Part shown: one piece after another, positions 12,896 to 20,019 of the stretch
Numbering within the stretch: the first letter of the stretch is position 1
Layout: each line of letters begins with the position of its first letter
Source: Acidithiobacillus ferridurans
GTDB lineage: Bacteria; Pseudomonadota; Gammaproteobacteria; Acidithiobacillales; Acidithiobacillaceae
DNA: 64,000 bases
Assembly: GCF_003966655.1 (NCBI RefSeq)
Contig: NZ_AP018795.1
Location: 372,001-436,000 of the forward strand
Direction: 5' to 3'
Translations under genes and position numbers: made by a program
The notes under the pieces: generated by a model
Seen by the model: only the letters and a program-made list of their open reading frames with translations
What the model was told of the DNA's origin: nothing
The model's database searches: none

Positions 12896-12990
12896 TTAGA
12901 ACTTGGCCGCCACGCTGGCACCGACAAAAACCGGTGTACTCGCCTGCGCGGCAACGAAGTTTCCGCCATATTTTGTGCTCCGCAACCGCG
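12896..12990 (-). pseudogene. C-terminal tail of an outer-membrane beta-barrel protein (remnant)
   Basis: The reverse strand reads TKYGGNFVAAQ then TPVFVGASVAAKF and a TAA stop (12896-12898). Alternating strands with a C-terminal phenylalanine are typical for the last strand of outer-membrane barrels. Upstream of about 12990 the frame loses sense and there is no start codon. A degenerate PHO-box-like block lies 17 nt further upstream in the right orientation, so this may be the end of a phosphate-regulated porin or receptor whose body was deleted. Confidence 0.35.
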
Positions 12991-13006
12991 CAGTATTGCA
13001 GCACCA

Positions 13007-13050
13007 GAATATGACATTATTAATAAGTTTTAACAATAAAATTGTGACAA
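13007..13050 (-). promoter_or_regulatory. Degenerate PHO-box-like array
   Basis: Read on the reverse strand the four contiguous 11-mers are TTGTCACAATT, TTATTGTTAAA, ACTTATTAATA and ATGTCATATTC. The outer two match the PHO half-site (TGTCA), 33 bp apart; the inner two have decayed. Its direction points to the outer-membrane remnant at 12896. It is weaker than the three arrays at 17.2-18.9 kb. Confidence 0.35.
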
Positions 13051-13111
13051 ATGACGCTATTATTTGGAAGCGTCATAGATGACCACGGGATCACAATGTA
13101 AGGAAATCGAA

Positions 13112-13660
13112 ATGGCACATTCAAAGTCGTTATATTCTTTCCGTATGGCGCAAAAAGCAGAAATGACTGCCCTTTGCGCGCTCATCAATAGTGTATATCG
13201 AGGCGAAGCTGCCAAAGGTGGGTGGACTACAGAAGCAGAGTTGCTGGGCGGCCAGCGCTGTGACGTGGCGATGCTGGAAAAACTCTCCGACAAACCGGAC
13301 AGTGGTTTCCTGGTGGCCACGAAAGAAGGCGAGATCATCGCCTGCTGTCATGTACAACTTGCCACAGCGGCGGTCGCCGAGTGCGGAATGCTTTCCGTGA
13401 CTCCGGCGTGGCAGAATCAGGGCATCGCCAAAGCGCTGCTCCGTACGGCGGAGCAATATTCCCGGGAAACCTGGCAGGCGACGCGCATGCGCCTATGGAT
13501 CATCAAACAACGTCCGGAACTGGCGGAATATTATCAGCGGCGCGGCTACCGGCTTACCGGCGCTACTCTGCCCTTCCCGGATGATGTCCGCTACGGCATC
13601 CCCAGAGTCAACGGGTTGTACCTCCTCGCACTGGAGAAAGTCATCGCGTCCGCCGGGTAA
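13112..13660 (+). CDS. GNAT family N-acetyltransferase
   Basis: The 182-residue protein has the GNAT fold: an N-terminal YSFRMAQKAEMTALCALINSVYRG helix region, GFLVATKEGEIIACCHVQL strands, and the acetyl-CoA loop MLSVTPAWQNQGIAKALLRTAE (Q-x-x-G-I-A). The C-terminal LAEYYQRRGYRLTG segment is typical. The substrate is unknown. ATG 13112 has AAGGAAA upstream and is preferred over ATG 13079. It converges on the phosphoesterase gene with 3 nt between stops. Confidence 0.8.
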   Translation: MAHSKSLYSFRMAQKAEMTALCALINSVYRGEAAKGGWTTEAELLGGQRCDVAMLEKLSDKPDSGFLVATKEGEIIACCHVQLATAAVAECGMLSVTPAWQNQGIAKALLRTAEQYSRETWQATRMRLWIIKQRPELAEYYQRRGYRLTGATLPFPDDVRYGIPRVNGLYLLALEKVIASAG

Positions 13661-13663
13661 GCA

Positions 13664-15235
13664 TCAGATGCGGAAACCTTGGGGCCGCTGATCCCAGTCA
13701 AAAGCCCCCATCAGGTCATACGAGTCGGCGTCGCGTTGGTTGAGGGGTTGCAGACCGAAACGGGTTTCGATGAATTTGAGGATGCTCGCCGTACTGGCGA
13801 GGTGGTGATCCACCAACCCTTGCCGCGCCCAGGGGCTGATGAGCAGGGCCGGAATACGGGTGCCAAATCCATAGTCGTCCACCACTTTAGGCGGCAGCGA
13901 ATCCCAAAAGCCACCACCTTCGTCATAGGTAATGAAGATGGCGGTTTTGTCCCAGGCCGGACCATCCGCAGCGGCGCGCACCAGTTGCTCCACCCATTCC
14001 ATACCGTAGGCGGGTGCGCAGTCAGCCGGGTGTTCGTCATGGGCGGCACTGGCCCTGACAAAGGAAACACCGGGCAGCTTGCCGGCATGGGCGTCGGCGA
14101 GAAAGTCTTCGCTATCGCGCATGTGACCGTTCTTCACATATTCTGGCCAGCGCGGGTAATACTGGAAGGGATTATGGTGGGCCACATACAACTGACCCGT
14201 ATCGATCACCGCCGAGCCGTCGCCGGGACCAAACGCGGTCTTGAGCGCCCATGGCTTCACCCGGTCCCAATTTTCGTTATACCAGGCCCAGGACACTCTG
14301 GCGCCATCCAGACGGTCACCGATATTGTCGTAGGTCTGCGCCTCCGGCGGCGGAGATATCTTCAGCGCCTTCACGGCATCCGCGTTGGTCGGTCCCTGCA
14401 CCGGCGGCAGGTCGTTGACCAGCACTTTTTGGTGGTCATAGGGCAGATCAAAGAAACGGTGCTCCAGACCCGCTTCCTTCGGATCGAAGGGCGCACAGAC
14501 CTCCCTGGGTGCGTGGGGATGGATACAGGAACGGGCGGCCGCCAGATAAAGCGCATTACCGGTGCTGCCGCCGCTCATAGCCTGAAAGAAATGATCGAAG
14601 AGCGTGTACTGGTGCGCCACCTGATGATAGAAGGGCAAATCTTCGCCAGTATAGTAGCCCAGCACCGGGCCGCTGGGGCGGGCCAGATCGAAGGCGATCT
14701 GCTCGGGGCTCATTTTCCGGAATTCGTCCCGCGACAAAAGGGTTTTGCTGCCACCCGCCAGAGCCACGAAGCGATCCATTTTGCCGTTGTGCACTTCCGC
14801 CATCATACGAAAAAAGCGATGCGCAGGATCCCAATGCACATTGCCCCTGACCGGAATATAGGGCGCCATGTGAAAAGGCTGGTTCGGCAATTGCACATTC
14901 TGAAAACCCGGAATTTCCGCAGGTAACGGAAGATTATCATAAGCGATGCCCGCGGGGTTTTTCTGTAAGCCGAGGAAACGCGGATCCAACTGTCCCTGCC
15001 CATCCAGCAGGTTGACGACCTGCTGTCCGTTTTTCGGCTGGAAAGTACCGAAGTAATGATCGAAACTGCGATTTTCCTGAAAGATCACCACCACATGCTC
15101 GATCTTCTGACGCAGGAGATGCTCTCCGCTGACGCCTGCCGCACGTGCCACCCCCAGCAGATGCGGAGCAGCGACAACTGCACCACTCCCCAGCCCCAGC
15201 CGCTTCAAAAACTGCCGGCGATTCTGTCGCTCCAT
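13664..15235 (-). CDS. Tat-exported phosphoesterase (acid phosphatase/phospholipase C family)
   Basis: The 523-residue protein belongs to the PF04185-type phosphoesterases that include AcpA-like acid phosphatases and non-haemolytic phospholipases C. A twin-arginine signal (RRQFLKRLGLGSG) begins near residue 6, so it is folded before export to the periplasm. The metal/nucleophile segment HVVVIFQENRSFDHYFGTF follows near residue 45, and later ITYDEGGGFWDSLPP and FGTRIPALLISPWA match the C-terminal metal site. ATG 15235 has CAGGAG 8 nt upstream. It lies 60 nt downstream of tonB in the exbB-exbD-tonB direction, so it is probably the last gene of a PHO-box-controlled operon. Phosphate release from organic esters is the likely job; phospholipase activity cannot be ruled out. 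Confidence 0.85.
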   Translation of the reverse strand: MERQNRRQFLKRLGLGSGAVVAAPHLLGVARAAGVSGEHLLRQKIEHVVVIFQENRSFDHYFGTFQPKNGQQVVNLLDGQGQLDPRFLGLQKNPAGIAYDNLPLPAEIPGFQNVQLPNQPFHMAPYIPVRGNVHWDPAHRFFRMMAEVHNGKMDRFVALAGGSKTLLSRDEFRKMSPEQIAFDLARPSGPVLGYYTGEDLPFYHQVAHQYTLFDHFFQAMSGGSTGNALYLAAARSCIHPHAPREVCAPFDPKEAGLEHRFFDLPYDHQKVLVNDLPPVQGPTNADAVKALKISPPPEAQTYDNIGDRLDGARVSWAWYNENWDRVKPWALKTAFGPGDGSAVIDTGQLYVAHHNPFQYYPRWPEYVKNGHMRDSEDFLADAHAGKLPGVSFVRASAAHDEHPADCAPAYGMEWVEQLVRAAADGPAWDKTAIFITYDEGGGFWDSLPPKVVDDYGFGTRIPALLISPWARQGLVDHHLASTASILKFIETRFGLQPLNQRDADSYDLMGAFDWDQRPQGFRI

Positions 15236-15295
15236 GAAAAAAACTCCTGATTCCATTAATGATTGGCAAGTATCCGCCCATATAGCCGACGGATA

Positions 15296-16015
15296 CTAGG
15301 AAGCGCGTCCTGACAAATGCACCTCTACCGTAAAATTGGTGGCATGCTTCGGCATATCTTTGGAGAAGGGCGGGTACTGTCCTTCTTTCACTGACTTCAA
15401 TGCCGCCCTATCGATGGGCCCAGCCCCGCTGGATCGGGAAATTTTCGCCCACTGCAATCGACCCGAAGGCGCAAGCCGGAATGTGATGATCGCGGTGCCG
15501 CTTAAATGCATCAGGCGGATCGCTTCGGGCACATGGGCATCCGCCTGAACCTGGGCCCGCACCAGGGCTGCGTATTCGGCTAGCGCTGCCTGACGTGCGG
15601 CCATGCTGGGCGCGGGCGGCGGCGGTGGCGGTGGGACCACCGGCGGCCTAGGCGGTGCCACCGGTGCGAGAGGCAACGGTGTTTTGGCTATCAGCGGTTT
15701 GGGCACAGGCACTTGATGCACCACTGGTTTCGGCAACGGAACGGGACGCGGCAGCGGTTTGGGATGCACCATCGGCTTTGGCGGCGGAGGTACCGGCTTC
15801 GGCTTCGGCTTCGGCGGAACCGGCTGTATCATGTGGATTGCAATAATTTTCTTTACGACCGGCTGGGGGGGTGGCGTATTACTTCCCACCCAGATCAATC
15901 CGCCCACCAGCAACGCCTCCAATACCGCGCCGACCAACAATGCCCGGCCAAAATGCTCTTTATTCGTATTTAGTGGCGGCGGCGTCCAGGATGGATTACC
16001 AACGATTGTATTCAC
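15296..16015 (-). CDS. tonB: TonB energy-transducing protein
   Basis: TonB transmits proton-motive force from ExbB/ExbD to outer-membrane receptors. The product (239 residues from GTG 16015, with AAGGAAGG upstream) has a cytoplasmic start, one transmembrane helix (ALLVGAVLEALLVGGLIWVG), a long Pro/Lys/Val-rich periplasm-spanning region with PKPKPKPVPPPPKP-type repeats, and a C-terminal TonB domain (VPEAIRLMHLSGTAIITFRLAPSGRL...QYPPFSKDMP). It follows exbD by 21 nt. No intact TonB-dependent receptor is present in the window. Confidence 0.9.
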   Translation of the reverse strand: MNTIVGNPSWTPPPLNTNKEHFGRALLVGAVLEALLVGGLIWVGSNTPPPQPVVKKIIAIHMIQPVPPKPKPKPVPPPPKPMVHPKPLPRPVPLPKPVVHQVPVPKPLIAKTPLPLAPVAPPRPPVVPPPPPPPAPSMAARQAALAEYAALVRAQVQADAHVPEAIRLMHLSGTAIITFRLAPSGRLQWAKISRSSGAGPIDRAALKSVKEGQYPPFSKDMPKHATNFTVEVHLSGRAS

Positions 16016-16036
16016 CAATTACCTTCCTTGTTTTTC

Positions 16037-16438
16037 CTAACCACGCGCTTTCGCGGCAATCCCGATATCACTCACTCCTGCCTTCTGGCAGCGATCCATC
16101 ACATGGACGAAATCCTGAAAAGGCACGCCCTTATCGGCAGCGATGGTGATCTGGGTCTTCGCAGGGTTACCATCACCGGCGAGCATTTTCTGCAGGCCGT
16201 CGAGATCATAGTGGTGACCCTTCACATCCACCGATCCATCCTTATCGATATTGATGGTGTAGTGCGGATGCGGAAGCTGCTGCGCCTGGCTGGACCTGGG
16301 CAACTGCAGACTCAGCCCTTTGTCGGGGATCATTTGCAGCGTGATCATGATAAAAAACACCAGCAGGAAGAGCATAATGTCGATCATGGGGATGATCTCC
16401 ACCCGGCCCTTCTTCTGCTCGAAATAACGGCGCTCCAT
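16037..16438 (-). CDS. exbD: Biopolymer transport protein ExbD
   Basis: ExbD is the small inner-membrane partner of ExbB in the proton-driven motor for TonB. The 133-residue protein has one N-terminal transmembrane helix with the conserved aspartate (EIIPMIDIMLFLLVFFIM), followed by a periplasmic domain (LQLPRSS...ITIAADKGVPFQDFVHVMDRCQKAGV). Its ATG overlaps the exbB stop by one base (TGATG). Confidence 0.93.
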   Translation of the reverse strand: MERRYFEQKKGRVEIIPMIDIMLFLLVFFIMITLQMIPDKGLSLQLPRSSQAQQLPHPHYTINIDKDGSVDVKGHHYDLDGLQKMLAGDGNPAKTQITIAADKGVPFQDFVHVMDRCQKAGVSDIGIAAKARG

Positions 16439-17121
16439 CAACTGGCCCTCGCCACAGACAACATTTCACTGCGTTGCTGCTCACCGTTGTCCGGCGTGAT
16501 CATGGGTTGACCGTCCATCCGATTGATCAGCATGGTCTTTACGGAATCCAGTTGCAGGAGAATCTGCCGCACCTGGTTATTGAAGGCATTGAAGGCCATC
16601 AGACCGAGCATGGCGATAAACAGGCCAGTTGCCGTGGCGACCAGCGCGTCAGCCACACCGCCGGTGACCGCCGTAGGCGCGTGTCCCGGAGTGGCCAGCA
16701 CCGAAAAAGCGTGGAACATACCGATAATCGTGCCGAACAAACCCAGCAGCGGCGCCAAGGTGATGATAGTGTCCAGCAACCACAGACGGCGATCCAGTTG
16801 CGGCGCCAACACCAGCACACTTTCTTCAAGACGGCTGGCAAGGCCTTCGCCTTTCACCTGCCCATGATGGGAGGCAGCCATACGCAGCAACGAGGCTTCG
16901 GGCAGATCACTCGCCCCATCAGCCATCTGATTCAGCGTGTCACGATCCAGGCGACCATGGCTGCCCAGTTCATGTACAAAGATCAGCCCACGCAGGATGG
17001 TGCGCCGCAAAAACCAGAACCGGTCCACGATAACGGACAATTCGACCAATAACAGCGCGCCAAGCACGTAGAGAACGCCATCTGAATAATTGGCGAGGTG
17101 AATGAGATATTGCAGGTTCAT
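16438..17121 (-). CDS. exbB: Biopolymer transport protein ExbB (MotA/TolQ family)
   Basis: ExbB forms the pentameric channel scaffold of the TonB motor. The 227-residue protein has a first transmembrane helix (VLYVLGALLLVELSVIVDRFWFL), a cytoplasmic loop, and the two conserved C-terminal helices with TIITLAPLLGLFGTIIGMFHAF and VADALVATATGLFIAMLGLMAFN. ATG 17121 was chosen because it lies behind GAGGGAG. That site can be closed by a hairpin with the first transcribed bases, and transcription probably starts from the PHO-box promoter at 17150-17194. It is the first gene of exbB-exbD-tonB-phosphoesterase. Confidence 0.93.
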   Translation of the reverse strand: MNLQYLIHLANYSDGVLYVLGALLLVELSVIVDRFWFLRRTILRGLIFVHELGSHGRLDRDTLNQMADGASDLPEASLLRMAASHHGQVKGEGLASRLEESVLVLAPQLDRRLWLLDTIITLAPLLGLFGTIIGMFHAFSVLATPGHAPTAVTGGVADALVATATGLFIAMLGLMAFNAFNNQVRQILLQLDSVKTMLINRMDGQPMITPDNGEQQRSEMLSVARAS

Positions 17122-17125
17122 AAGG

Positions 17126-17149
17126 ACTCCCTCTCTAACCGGAGGGAGT
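17126..17149 (-). promoter_or_regulatory. 5'-UTR hairpin that can hide the exbB ribosome site
   Basis: On the transcript strand ACTCCCTC (17149-17142), an 8-nt loop and GAGGGAGT (17133-17126) form a perfect 8-bp stem. The 3' arm is the exbB Shine-Dalgarno sequence. The predicted transcription start from the -10 at 17150-17155 falls at or near the hairpin. This could throttle exbB translation. Confidence 0.5.
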
Positions 17150-17194
17150 ACCATAGCAAATCAATGTGACAGTTTTATGAACCTGTTATGACAA
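17150..17194 (-). promoter_or_regulatory. PHO-box promoter of the exbB operon
   Basis: Reverse-strand 11-mers TTGTCATAACA, GGTTCATAAAA and CTGTCACATTG run contiguously (17194-17162), then ATTTGC and a TATGGT -10 hexamer (17155-17150). The 11-bp period and TGTCA/TTCAT half-sites match the known PHO box bound by PhoB-type regulators, with the box replacing a -35 element. It overlaps the 3' end of the regulator gene. Confidence 0.7.
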
Positions 17195-17947
17195 ATTTAC
17201 ATCAATGGCGTTTTTCGGCGGCAAACTCAGGCGATACCCAAACCCATGTACCGTTTCCAGCCACTCCGCAGCGCCAGCCTTTTCCAGACCTTTGCGCAAA
17301 CGATGCACCTGAGCCGCCACCGAATTTTCCTGGATGAGGCTGCGGCCGTCCGTCAATACATTGGCAATTTCTTGGGGCGAGAAAGTCCGATCCGGGTGCA
17401 ATGCCAAATAGTGCAGAAACCGGAAAAGTCGTCGACTCAGACGTATTTCTTCCCCATTCACCCATACCCGACAGCTTCCCGGATTGACCTGGATCAGCGA
17501 CCCCCGCTCTACCGGGAGGCATTTCCAGTGCTGGTTTTTTTTCAGCAGCGCCGATGCCTGCGCCAGCAACAACGTCTCGCTACACGGGGTCGATACATAC
17601 GCGCTCGCTCCAGCATCCAGAGCGGACATGGCGTTTGCGTCATCATCCACCCCGATAGCCAGCACCGGCAAACCGGCACAAACCGGGTAAGCGCTTAATT
17701 CCATGAGCCACGGCGCAAATCGGGCAGACCAGTCCTGCAGAATCAGCAGGGCCGGGTGCCATCCCGTAACAAGCTGAAAGGCGTCATTCATTGCGCTCGT
17801 CGTGCGCAGGAAGGCGCCCGATCCCTGCAGGCGGAATATAAGCCCACTCGGCGGCGCCGTTTCTGCCAGCAGCAGAATGCGTGCCTGATAAAGCGGATCC
17901 ATTTCCACATTGTTATTCGTTGTGCTGCCTTGCGGTATGGCCATCAT
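17186..17947 (-). CDS. OmpR/PhoB-type winged-helix regulator with degenerate receiver
   Basis: The 253-residue protein has a receiver-like N-terminus (about 22-135) and a C-terminal OmpR/PhoB winged helix (about 145-240: IRLSRRLFRFLHYLALHPDRTFSPQEIANVL, QENSVAAQVHRLRKGLE, VHGFGYRLS). In the receiver, the usual acidic pair is replaced by AET near residue 28. The expected phospho-acceptor region reads PALLILQDW, and the conserved lysine of the K-P motif is missing (YVSTPCSE). It is therefore likely to be phosphorylation-independent or a pseudo-receiver. No histidine kinase gene is adjacent. ATG 17947 follows GGCAGGAAACC. Four contiguous 11-bp PHO-like repeats lie at its own promoter, so autoregulation is likely, and the same motif precedes exbB, which starts 64 nt after its stop. 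Confidence 0.8.
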   Translation of the reverse strand: MMAIPQGSTTNNNVEMDPLYQARILLLAETAPPSGLIFRLQGSGAFLRTTSAMNDAFQLVTGWHPALLILQDWSARFAPWLMELSAYPVCAGLPVLAIGVDDDANAMSALDAGASAYVSTPCSETLLLAQASALLKKNQHWKCLPVERGSLIQVNPGSCRVWVNGEEIRLSRRLFRFLHYLALHPDRTFSPQEIANVLTDGRSLIQENSVAAQVHRLRKGLEKAGAAEWLETVHGFGYRLSLPPKNAIDVNLS

Positions 17948-17976
17948 GGTTTCCTGCCGAAACTGGACCTTATGAC

Positions 17977-18032
17977 AGGATATACCCACAATATGACAGT
18001 TTTATGAAACTACAATGACAATTTTATGACAA
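17977..18032 (-). promoter_or_regulatory. PHO-box promoter of the regulator gene
   Basis: Reverse-strand 11-mers TTGTCATAAAA, TTGTCATTGTA, GTTTCATAAAA and CTGTCATATTG are contiguous (18032-17989), followed by TGGGTA and TATCCT as -10 (17982-17977). Half-site period, final CTGTCAYATTG and the 6-nt gap equal those of the exbB promoter. The rest of the gap to 18124 holds only a GGAGACC/GGTCTCC stem at 18072-18090 without a T-run. Confidence 0.7.
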
Positions 18033-18123
18033 AAACCCAGCGCCATACGTACTGCAACACACAGGATTTGCGGAGACCGCAGTGGTCTCCGGCAACTCCA
18101 GCCAGGCATGGAAGATCAGTGAA

Positions 18124-18645
18124 TTACTGAAGCGGGATGGTTTGCTGTTGCGGCTGCTGTGGCTGTTGCGGCGCCGCTGGTTGACTGCTGGTCTGAGGCA
18201 ATACCACCCCTGCCGGGGCCTGAGGACTGGCGGTCATGCCCAGCCGTTGCGAAAGCAGCTTCTGGAACTGCAAAGATAGTGGCTTGTCGCCAAAAGTCCC
18301 GATACGGATGTTGACCTTGGTAACATCCGTGGCCATGGAAGTCAGCGTTACCTTGGCGGTCTGGCCGTCCGTGGTGGTACCCTCGATCAGATACTCGGAC
18401 GGACTCTTGCGGATTTCGCCGTTATAGTGGATGCTCATTTCTCCGAATGCCGCCTTCGACGCTGCACTGACCCGCGTCACCGACGTCGGATAGTAGGCGT
18501 AGAAATTGGCGACCCCGCCATTTTCCACATAGGCCACGGCCCCACCACCAGCCCCGGCCGCGAGAAGCGCCACGCAACCACCAAGCGGCAGAGCTGCTAC
18601 CACACCCACTACCGCCAACCACGCCAACCGCCGTTGCGTCGCCAT
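18124..18645 (-). CDS. DUF3568-type lipoprotein
   Basis: The 173-residue protein has a signal peptide with lipobox LGGC (cysteine near residue 24), then a glycine-rich AAGAGGGAVAY stretch and a body (YPTSVTRVSAASKAAFGEM...VNIRIGTFGDKPLSLQFQKLLSQRL) typical for DUF3568 lipoproteins. The C-terminal 35 residues are a Gln/Pro-rich low-complexity tail. It is membrane-anchored, function unknown. A single TTGTCAC half-site lies about 30 nt upstream, not enough to claim PHO control. Confidence 0.7.
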   Translation of the reverse strand: MATQRRLAWLAVVGVVAALPLGGCVALLAAGAGGGAVAYVENGGVANFYAYYPTSVTRVSAASKAAFGEMSIHYNGEIRKSPSEYLIEGTTTDGQTAKVTLTSMATDVTKVNIRIGTFGDKPLSLQFQKLLSQRLGMTASPQAPAGVVLPQTSSQPAAPQQPQQPQQQTIPLQ

Positions 18646-18832
18646 GCCAACCCCCTAGCTCCAATCCAAGAAATAGTGACAAAAACCCGGCAGAACCGGG
18701 CTTCTTCGCTATTGTCTGAAATCCTATCACAGCTCACCCATGAACATCCACACCGACCAGCCAGTCTCCATTCCGCGCCTTCATGGGTTCCAGAGACAGG
18801 TTTATATCGAACGCGGAAGACAAAGGTGCATA

Positions 18833-18888
18833 TTGTCACCAAAAAGTCACCTCAGTGACGCATTGCTGTCACATTGGACTGCTAATAT
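18833..18888 (+). promoter_or_regulatory. PHO-box promoter in front of a truncated secreted-protein gene
   Basis: Contiguous 11-mers TTGTCACCAAA, AAGTCACCTCA, GTGACGCATTG and CTGTCACATTG (18833-18876) are followed by GACTGC and a TAATAT -10 (18883-18888). The architecture is the same as at the regulator and exbB promoters. The gene start at 18939 follows with a TTAGGAGG ribosome site. A further TTGTCACC overlaps the -10. Confidence 0.7.
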
Positions 18889-18938
18889 TGTCACCATTCC
18901 AGGTGGCAAAAGATTGGCATTTGTTAGGAGGTAGCCGC

Positions 18939-19070
18939 ATGAACACCATAAACCAAGGCCCGGCACACCCGCTGGATCGGTTATCTGCCTATAGCGGAAC
19001 GATCTTTTTGGTCAGCGGGACCTGCGCCGTTGCAAGGCCGTCCTGGGCGCAAGGCTCTGCCCTCCGCGCG
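18939..19070 (+). pseudogene. Signal-peptide remnant of a secreted, probably TonB-dependent receptor gene
   Basis: ATG 18939 follows TTAGGAGG and encodes a long signal peptide (SAYSGTIFLVSGTCAVARPSWAQGSA) of the kind seen on TonB-dependent receptors. After the predicted cleavage site near WAQG the sequence loses any family resemblance, although the frame stays open to 19310. The intact PHO-box promoter and ribosome site show that a regulated envelope protein was once made here. Identity as a receptor is inferred from the promoter shared with exbB-exbD-tonB. Confidence 0.45.
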
Positions 19071-19243
19071 TCGCTTTGGCGCCGCCCCCTTCTGATATTT
19101 TCAGAACCTGCATCAAAGACCGGATATAAGGCAGCAACCAGACCTCAACATGTCAGAAGTCGAAAACCATCTTACGAACATGGAGGCATCCATATAAGCG
19201 TTTTCAAATCGTCACCAAGGATATCACTAAGTTGCGAGATTAA

Positions 19244-19384: not shown

Positions 19385-19606
19385 ATGCCGGAAACCACCT
19401 TCACCGAATTACGCAACCACGCCAAGACCTGGTTCGATCTGGTCGAGAGCGGACAGACGGTGCGCGTATTGCGCAACGGCAAACTCATCGCCGAAATTCA
19501 CCCCATCCCGGCGCAACTGCCTTCGTGGAAGCAGCGTCCGGCGCGCCCACTGGCCATCGGTGGCAAGGAGATCAGCCGGCTCATCCTCGACGAGCGCGGA
19601 GACTGA
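19385..19606 (+). CDS. Type II antitoxin, Phd/YefM family
   Basis: The 73-residue protein begins TTFTELRNHAKTWFDLVESGQTVRVLRNGKLIAEIHPI, the DNA-binding and dimerisation part of Phd/YefM antitoxins. The C-terminal segment (PLAIGGKEISRLILDERGD) is the probable toxin-binding tail. Its stop overlaps the start of the PIN toxin gene by one base (TGATG), so the pair is translationally coupled. ACGGGAG precedes the ATG. Confidence 0.85.
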   Translation: MPETTFTELRNHAKTWFDLVESGQTVRVLRNGKLIAEIHPIPAQLPSWKQRPARPLAIGGKEISRLILDERGD

Positions 19607-20019
19607 TGCGCGTCTATTTCGACTCGTCGGCCTTTGCCAAGCGCTACATCGACGCAACCGGCACTGCTGACGTCCTGGCGTGGTGCGAACGGGCCAGCGA
19701 ACTGGCACTGTCGGTCATCGCCGTGCCTGAACTGATCTCCGCCTTCTGCCGTCTGCAACGGGAAGGACGCCTGACGGAGGCGCAATACCAGATCATCAAG
19801 CGCGCCCTTATGCTCGACATCGCCGATGCGCTGATCTGCGATACCACTCCCCAGGTCCTCCAGCACGCCGTCAAAGCCTTGGAAAACCACACGCTGCGCG
19901 GCATGGACGCCATCCACCTGGGCGCCGCCCTCGCCTGCACCGCCGAAGTGTTCATCTCGGCCGATGCCCGCCAATGTCGCGCCGCCGAGGCCTTCGGTCT
20001 GCAGGTGGTATCGCTATGA
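19606..20019 (+). CDS. PIN-domain ribonuclease toxin (VapC-like)
   Basis: The 137-residue protein has the PIN acidic residues in order: YFDSSAFAKRY (D6), VPELISA (E), LRGMDAIHLGAAL (D) and FISADARQ (D). VapC-type toxins cleave tRNA or rRNA when not held by the antitoxin. The start ATG overlaps the antitoxin stop; the frame is open upstream but that part is the antitoxin in another frame. A third gene follows with a 4-nt overlap. Confidence 0.87.
   Translation: MRVYFDSSAFAKRYIDATGTADVLAWCERASELALSVIAVPELISAFCRLQREGRLTEAQYQIIKRALMLDIADALICDTTPQVLQHAVKALENHTLRGMDAIHLGAALACTAEVFISADARQCRAAEAFGLQVVSL

Follow-up and report, generated by a model that had tools for sequence, protein, structure and literature searches.

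What does a TonB motor import when its genes share an operon with a phosphoesterase? TonB-dependent receptors of Acidithiobacillus are generally labelled siderophore receptors, and this leaves a puzzle: many supposed iron importers, no siderophore production, and an organism bathed in soluble iron. The question arises at a locus of Acidithiobacillus ferridurans, within 64,000 nucleotides of DNA (the window; positions 372001-436000 of the single-contig 2.92-Mb genome, NZ_AP018795.1), where exbB, exbD, tonB and a phosphoesterase gene lie beside a gene for an OmpR/PhoB-type regulator. Coordinates of the locus are window positions. The operon is probably a phosphate-starvation (Pho) operon, encoding a PhoB-controlled TonB module for phosphorus scavenging.

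The operon and its PHO boxes

The operon, the adjacent regulator gene and their boxes are as follows.

17166-17193, minus strand: PHO box of the exbB operon, three 11-bp repeats, TGTCATAACAG-GTTCATAAAAC-TGTCAC
16438-17124, minus strand: ExbB, PF01618 (MotA_ExbB) 94 bits; 4-bp overlap with exbD
16037-16441, minus strand: ExbD, PF02472 105 bits
15296-16018, minus strand: TonB with a proline-rich periplasmic linker, PF03544 (TonB_C) 40 bits, TIGR01352 above cut-off
13664-15235, minus strand: phosphoesterase, predicted to be exported by twin-arginine translocation (Tat), Pfam PF04185 256 bits, E 7e-76
17186-17947, minus strand: OmpR/PhoB-type regulator with a pseudo-receiver; Trans_reg_C (58 bits) is the sole Pfam family matched
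17993-18031, minus strand: PHO box of the regulator promoter, four repeats, an exact three-repeat match

The exbB-exbD-tonB-phosphoesterase genes form one minus-strand run, 17124 to 13664, and Pfam matches bear out the gene order and families given by a first-pass annotation. The three subunit families together in one operon identify a TonB-ExbB-ExbD energy-transducing system; the window ExbB and ExbD did not reach the curated equivalog cut-offs for ExbB, ExbD or TolQR. In a search with the phosphoesterase, the closest named relatives were from Acidithiobacillus, including an A. ferruginosus protein that is 98% identical.

In the exbB promoter the box occupies the -35 position, replacing a -35 element, and is followed by 10 bp and a -10 element, TATGGT (about 17150-17155). 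Among loci compared (labelled L), the TGTCAC-10 bp-TATGGT arrangement is kept in the exbB leaders of L003-L008 and L031, and the box is conserved in at least 12 related loci, with mostly equal spacing. The regulator gene lies directly upstream and its 3' codons overlap the exbB box. Its start is the ATG at 17947, in agreement with the first-pass annotation, downstream of its own box; an alternative longer GTG open reading frame (17989) would begin at the box edge. The regulator box contains the sole exact TGTCATN5TGTCAT in the genome.

The phosphoesterase reading frame opens at 15256, with a ribosome site and start at 15235, and the Tat motif RR-x-F-L-K can be read directly. The nearest solved relatives are phospholipase C (9gy2) and the acid phosphatase AcpA (2d1g). 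Alignment with these structures shows Glu-Asn, Ser-Thr, His and Asp-Glu positions kept in the metal/nucleophile region, residues that we take to be catalytic. The family score and the conserved residues place the protein in PF04185, the AcpA/phospholipase C superfamily. Either ester type is possible as substrate, because the protein scores below both curated cut-offs (217 versus 363 bits for acid phosphatase, TIGR03397; 177 versus 580 bits for PC-phospholipase C, TIGR03396).

We searched the genome for exact matches to the three-repeat pattern TGTCAYN5BTTCAYN5TGTCAY and found three places: the exbB promoter, the regulator promoter and a site upstream of a second PF04185 gene (1513k, genome position). 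The earlier claim of a PHO-box-like promoter at exbB, with the same box at the regulator, thus stands far above chance. A two-repeat pattern with one mismatch allowed also picked out the promoters of three TonB-dependent receptors, of one PstS gene (338 bits, over its cut-off) and of a further regulator from the window regulator's family. A position weight matrix (PWM) trained solely on exbB and regulator promoters of this and related genomes scored 45 for the exbB box and 37 for the regulator box, both training sites, while the highest score among 1.02 million simulated positions (the null maximum) was 16.4. Scores on held-out promoters of the same genome were 29.8 for pstS2, 31 for the second phosphoesterase, 32, 32 and 19 for the receptors, 22.5 for the second regulator and 16.4 for pstS1, the last equal to the null maximum. 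These stretches were picked for a two-repeat match or as family members, and the unbiased test is the pattern search in the genus.

In 17 Acidithiobacillus genomes, exact-match search with the 28-bp box returned 33 sites, compared to 0 for the reversed pattern used as a control and about 0.0003 expected from base composition. The genes behind these sites are exbB (14), TonB-dependent receptors (8), pstS (4), the window-type regulator (3), OprD-family porins (2), the phosphate-selective porin OprO/P (PF07396; 1) and the second phosphoesterase (1). All 33 are on the correct strand, and the gene starts roughly 30-150 bp downstream, except at the second phosphoesterase, where the distance is 366 bp and a receptor remnant lies in between. 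The 14 exbB sites are orthologous and not mutually independent; those at receptors, PstS, porins and the regulator are separate promoters. The box is tied to phosphate because the promoters of PstS (four related genomes) and OprO/P (another genome) carry it too, and this sharing lends good support to the phosphate-starvation control suggested by the first-pass annotation. Tandem TGTCAT-type repeats in common with a pst promoter, their -35 placement and a genuine PhoB in the genome (at 2188031; 303.9 bits against the TIGR02154 cut-off of 296, active-site residues intact) are all features of a Pho regulon. The box is also compatible with the E. coli consensus CTGTCAT-A(AT)A(TA)-CTGT(CA)A(CT) (PMC3465305).

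Three of the five Plug-domain receptors in this genome (at 183k, 874k and 877k) lie behind boxes. Two belong to a stretch at 868000-884000 (L081) in which two TonB-dependent receptor genes come after the gene for a second pseudo-receiver regulator and all three have PHO-type boxes of their own; these two receptors are the best candidates for service by the window motor. The second phosphoesterase (1513063-1516231; L086, L151) is a 931-aa protein with a beta-propeller and a PF04185 domain behind a strong PHO box, from which its start is separated by the 82-aa C-terminal remnant of a receptor. Boxes at 2427919 and 2599587 (TGTCTTATTGTTGTCAT; L084, L085) were put down to chance, as they fall in a duplicated transposon-rich region. 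These are two near-identical 8-kb stretches with the same transposase-like genes, a recent duplication.

Under low phosphate, phosphorylated PhoB would bind the 11-bp repeats that stand in for the -35 element and switch on exbB-exbD-tonB-phosphoesterase. The motor would then energise the boxed receptors, through which organic phosphate, or else a complex of phosphate with a metal, may reach the periplasm; there the exported phosphoesterase would free phosphate for the Pst transporters.

Partner genes, lost genes and the choice between iron and phosphate

A comparison with related genomes, proposed as a check by the first-pass annotation, found both boxes and gene order conserved. Its idea that the TonB motor is tied to the phosphoesterase is supported as well. 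The operon is larger in relatives than in the window genome. An RNase T2 gene (PF00445) lies between tonB and the phosphoesterase in L009-L016 and L019, and TonB-dependent receptors (PF00593/PF07715) are found between exbD and tonB or after the phosphoesterase in L004, L005, L008, L009 and L012-L014. Relatives have a major facilitator superfamily (MFS) gene before the regulator, with inorganic phosphate transporters as its best solved relatives (E 3e-65), and L015-L017 and L019 have UDP-sulfoquinovose synthase (SQD1, E 6e-95) and a glycosyltransferase near the cluster. Making sulfolipids, degrading RNA and transporting phosphate are classical ways for cells to save phosphate.

The motor and the enzyme might be merely co-regulated, with the phosphoesterase acting alone on phosphoesters that diffuse through porins and the motor serving unrelated Pho-regulated receptors. 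Boxes before OprO/P and OprD porins fit this idea, as does the fact that in distant relatives the flank examined commonly has no TonB genes beside the phosphoesterase. We consider it unlikely, however, as phosphoesterase and receptor recur as neighbours in distant relatives (L024, L032, L035, L036, L038 and L060; divergently in L039 and L040), and in L012-L014 the receptor lies inside the exbB-tonB-phosphoesterase operon.

The window genome has lost parts of this system. The remaining features of the locus are the following.

12896-13038, minus strand: scar of a TonB-dependent receptor gene, from tblastn with the L005 and L012 receptors and alignment
18834-18894, plus strand: third box, weaker and phased, PWM 19.4
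18124-18645, same strand as the operon, upstream of the regulator: DUF3568 lipoprotein gene
13112-13660, facing the 3' end of the operon: GNAT acetyltransferase gene

The receptor scar consists of a promoter box relic (13011-13038) fused to the last ~30 codons (12896-12988), the roughly 2.2 kb that separate them in L005 having been deleted; the full receptor gene stands at this position in L005, L004 and L008. Position 12896, the left edge of the region singled out by the first-pass annotation, is the stop codon of this deleted receptor. We dropped chance as an explanation for the weak box at 13011 (1e-6 per position), given that L003, L005 and L008 have strong receptor-promoter boxes there. 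A second scar, at 18834-19100, aligns with the L003 leader upstream of exbB2: A. ferruginosus (L003) retains exbB2, a gene for a 962-aa phosphoesterase and tonB2 at this position, and this operon is missing from the window genome. The third box was said to precede a truncated secreted-protein gene. The box itself is real and phased, but there is no such gene; the region aligns with the untranslated leader in L003, and we rejected the idea that the box drives a secreted-protein gene. Because of the two scars and the 82-aa receptor remnant at the second phosphoesterase, we conclude that the window genome holds a trimmed system, which must rely on the boxed receptors at 183k, 874k and 877k.

Two side observations concern neighbouring genes. 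The position of the DUF3568 lipoprotein gene beside the cluster is kept in most Acidithiobacillus loci, and a box of its own was not seen. At the site of the A. ferruginosus exbB2 operon (19386-20019), a possible VapBC-type toxin-antitoxin pair was noticed by eye, with a short antitoxin-like start at 19386 and a PIN-like reading frame at 19525-20019.

The same component families have been assigned to iron. Osorio et al. (2008) described Acidithiobacillus gene clusters that combine TonB receptors with ExbBD-TonB, AcpA/PhoD-type phosphatases and PhoB-like OmpR-type regulators. They proposed phosphate-chelation-mediated iron uptake, in which Fe(III) enters through the receptors, phosphate from the phosphatase serves to chelate the iron inorganically, and expression is coordinated by Fur together with PhoB (PMC2631029). 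The receptors studied here do match siderophore and heme receptor models weakly, and one A. ferrooxidans PhoB-family regulator is cited in that paper as experimentally Fur-controlled. However, its text does not mention a pho box, and the promoters here carry PHO boxes in common with pstS and OprO/P. A simple consensus count found no Fur box above background at these promoters (best matches 9-12 of 19; background mean 10.2, 95th percentile 12), and by that count the operon does not class as a Fur operon. Moreover, the RNase T2, phosphate-type MFS and sulfolipid genes of relatives' clusters have no iron role. Iron uptake as the purpose of the operon seems quite unlikely to us. Because the box is held in common with pstS, and because of the non-iron partner genes, the sequence evidence favours phosphorus over iron for the boxed receptors and operon. 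A mixed reading, in which a ferric-phosphate complex is taken up for its phosphate, is possible.

Several points weigh against a phosphorus-scavenging module under PhoB. With its own receptor deleted, the window operon has its motor and phosphoesterase coupled to particular receptors by regulon and not by adjacency. The genome encodes six ExbD/TolR genes, window exbD among them, and other motors could serve the same receptors. The receptors match siderophore/heme receptor models best, though far below cut-off. A solved-structure search for clues to their substrate found no close solved relative. PhoB binding and induction by starvation are presumed from the promoters; the pairing of motor with receptors and the substrate are likewise predictions.

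If a subset of the receptors is indeed Pho-controlled, these would serve to scavenge phosphorus, in habitats where phosphate is precipitated by Fe(III). The 33 sites in 17 genomes would then constitute a concrete, testable regulon.

The regulator beside exbB

The regulator was described as PhoB-type. It does belong to the OmpR/PhoB-type family, but it is not PhoB. We rejected it as a PhoB orthologue, since it scores 78.5 bits against TIGR02154 (cut-off 296) and its receiver residues are replaced. Compared to the genuine PhoB of this genome and its relatives, neither the acidic pair nor the conserved Thr and Lys survive in the regulator and its family, whose phospho-acceptor site may be Asp, Glu, Asn, Phe or Gly. 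The predicted model has a (beta-alpha)5 receiver fold and a winged helix (mean predicted local distance difference test score, pLDDT, 80), with PDB fold matches to the OmpR/PhoB family; the domain arrangement is not reliable at an overall predicted template-modelling score (pTM) of 0.61. The predicted winged helix superposes on the PhoB effector domain bound to PHO-box DNA (1gxp) at 1.8 A over 97 columns. Atypical response regulators have been defined by a receiver fold without one or more of five conserved active-site residues (PMC12632262). Judged by alignment, predicted fold and fold matches, the window regulator is one.

Relatives of the regulator (L009:4359-5174, L014:1863-2672, L016:4459-5313, L081:5339-6199) have a conserved hydrophobic, His-rich N-terminus before the pseudo-receiver, e.g., MFYTLIGGVLHHALHLSDALLLM; the window protein is without this segment. 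It might bind metal or membrane.

The first-pass annotation placed the operon under this dedicated regulator. A self-contained island independent of PhoB is suggested by the best box in the genome at the regulator promoter, and by the position of the gene directly upstream of exbB, with its last codons overlapping the exbB box. On the other hand, a regulator orthologue (above ~43% identity) was not found, fragments aside, in six draft genomes (L004, L005, L006, L007, L008 and L031; A. ferriphilus, A. ferrivorans and A. ferrianus are among them), and the exbB box is identical or nearly so in all six. Regulator fragments remain at the locus in L006 and L031. The same box also stands at pstS promoters, expected PhoB targets, and the recognition helix of the regulator keeps only some of the positions that we assume contact bases in PhoB. 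Such an island is very improbable. As the six genomes retain the box, another protein must keep it, most simply PhoB, possibly with the second family member beside the receptors (873k). The regulator is thus not supported as the necessary driver, given the loss of its phosphorylation residues, the box in genomes without an orthologue, and the presence of a genuine PhoB. In the PhoB-controlled module, the pseudo-receiver regulator, itself behind a PHO box, would probably regulate the same promoters at a second tier and independently of phosphorylation.

A more specific proposal, which we regard as rather doubtful, combines Pho-controlled TonB import of Fe(III)-bound or polymeric phosphate in acidophiles (the latter, e.g., RNA fragments from the linked RNase T2) with a family of pseudo-receiver PhoB paralogues, in most relatives with the conserved His-rich N-terminus, that respond to a metal or some other intracellular ligand and adjust PHO-box activity with no phosphorylation involved.

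Comparison with known systems

The E. coli Pho regulon has the same 11-bp direct TGTCAT-type repeats at the -35 position. The middle repeat is TGTCA there and TTCAT here, and the targets here include a TonB motor and receptors. The clusters of Osorio et al. (2008; PMC2631029) are alike in component families, genus and gene context, a likeness drawn by families and not by locus tags. They were read as iron uptake under Fur and PhoB, whereas phosphorus is indicated here by PHO boxes that recur at pstS and OprO/P and by the RNase T2 and sulfolipid genes.

ChxR-like atypical response regulators (PMC3960148, PMC12632262) also combine an OmpR/PhoB-type fold with lost phosphorylation residues. Unlike these, the window regulator lies within the Pho regulon, which apparently also controls it, and is paired with TonB receptors in relatives. 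This makes the locus a natural system for studying a pseudo-receiver PhoB paralogue within a Pho network.

The idea of Pho-controlled TonB phosphorus transport is already known from Flavobacterium and Caulobacter. In Flavobacterium, phosphate-starvation-induced PusCD TonB transporters are found beside periplasmic phosphodiesterases and phosphomonoesterases (PMC8115612), and a similar arrangement is predicted here. PusCD is a SusCD-type system of Bacteroidetes with a surface lipoprotein; the Acidithiobacillus system has no SusD, has its ExbB-ExbD-TonB motor in the operon and a pseudo-receiver regulator, and occurs in an acidophilic proteobacterium. In Caulobacter, PhoB-controlled TonB receptors occur with nucleases and phosphatases; motor genes and a phosphoesterase in one operon are not reported in the parts of that account available to us (PMC11208175). 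New here are an acidophile operon that joins motor and enzyme behind a PHO box, a regulon that extends through the genus, and the pseudo-receiver regulator that belongs to this regulon. If correct, our reading would extend TonB-driven phosphorus uptake, as proposed in Flavobacterium and Caulobacter, to bioleaching bacteria.

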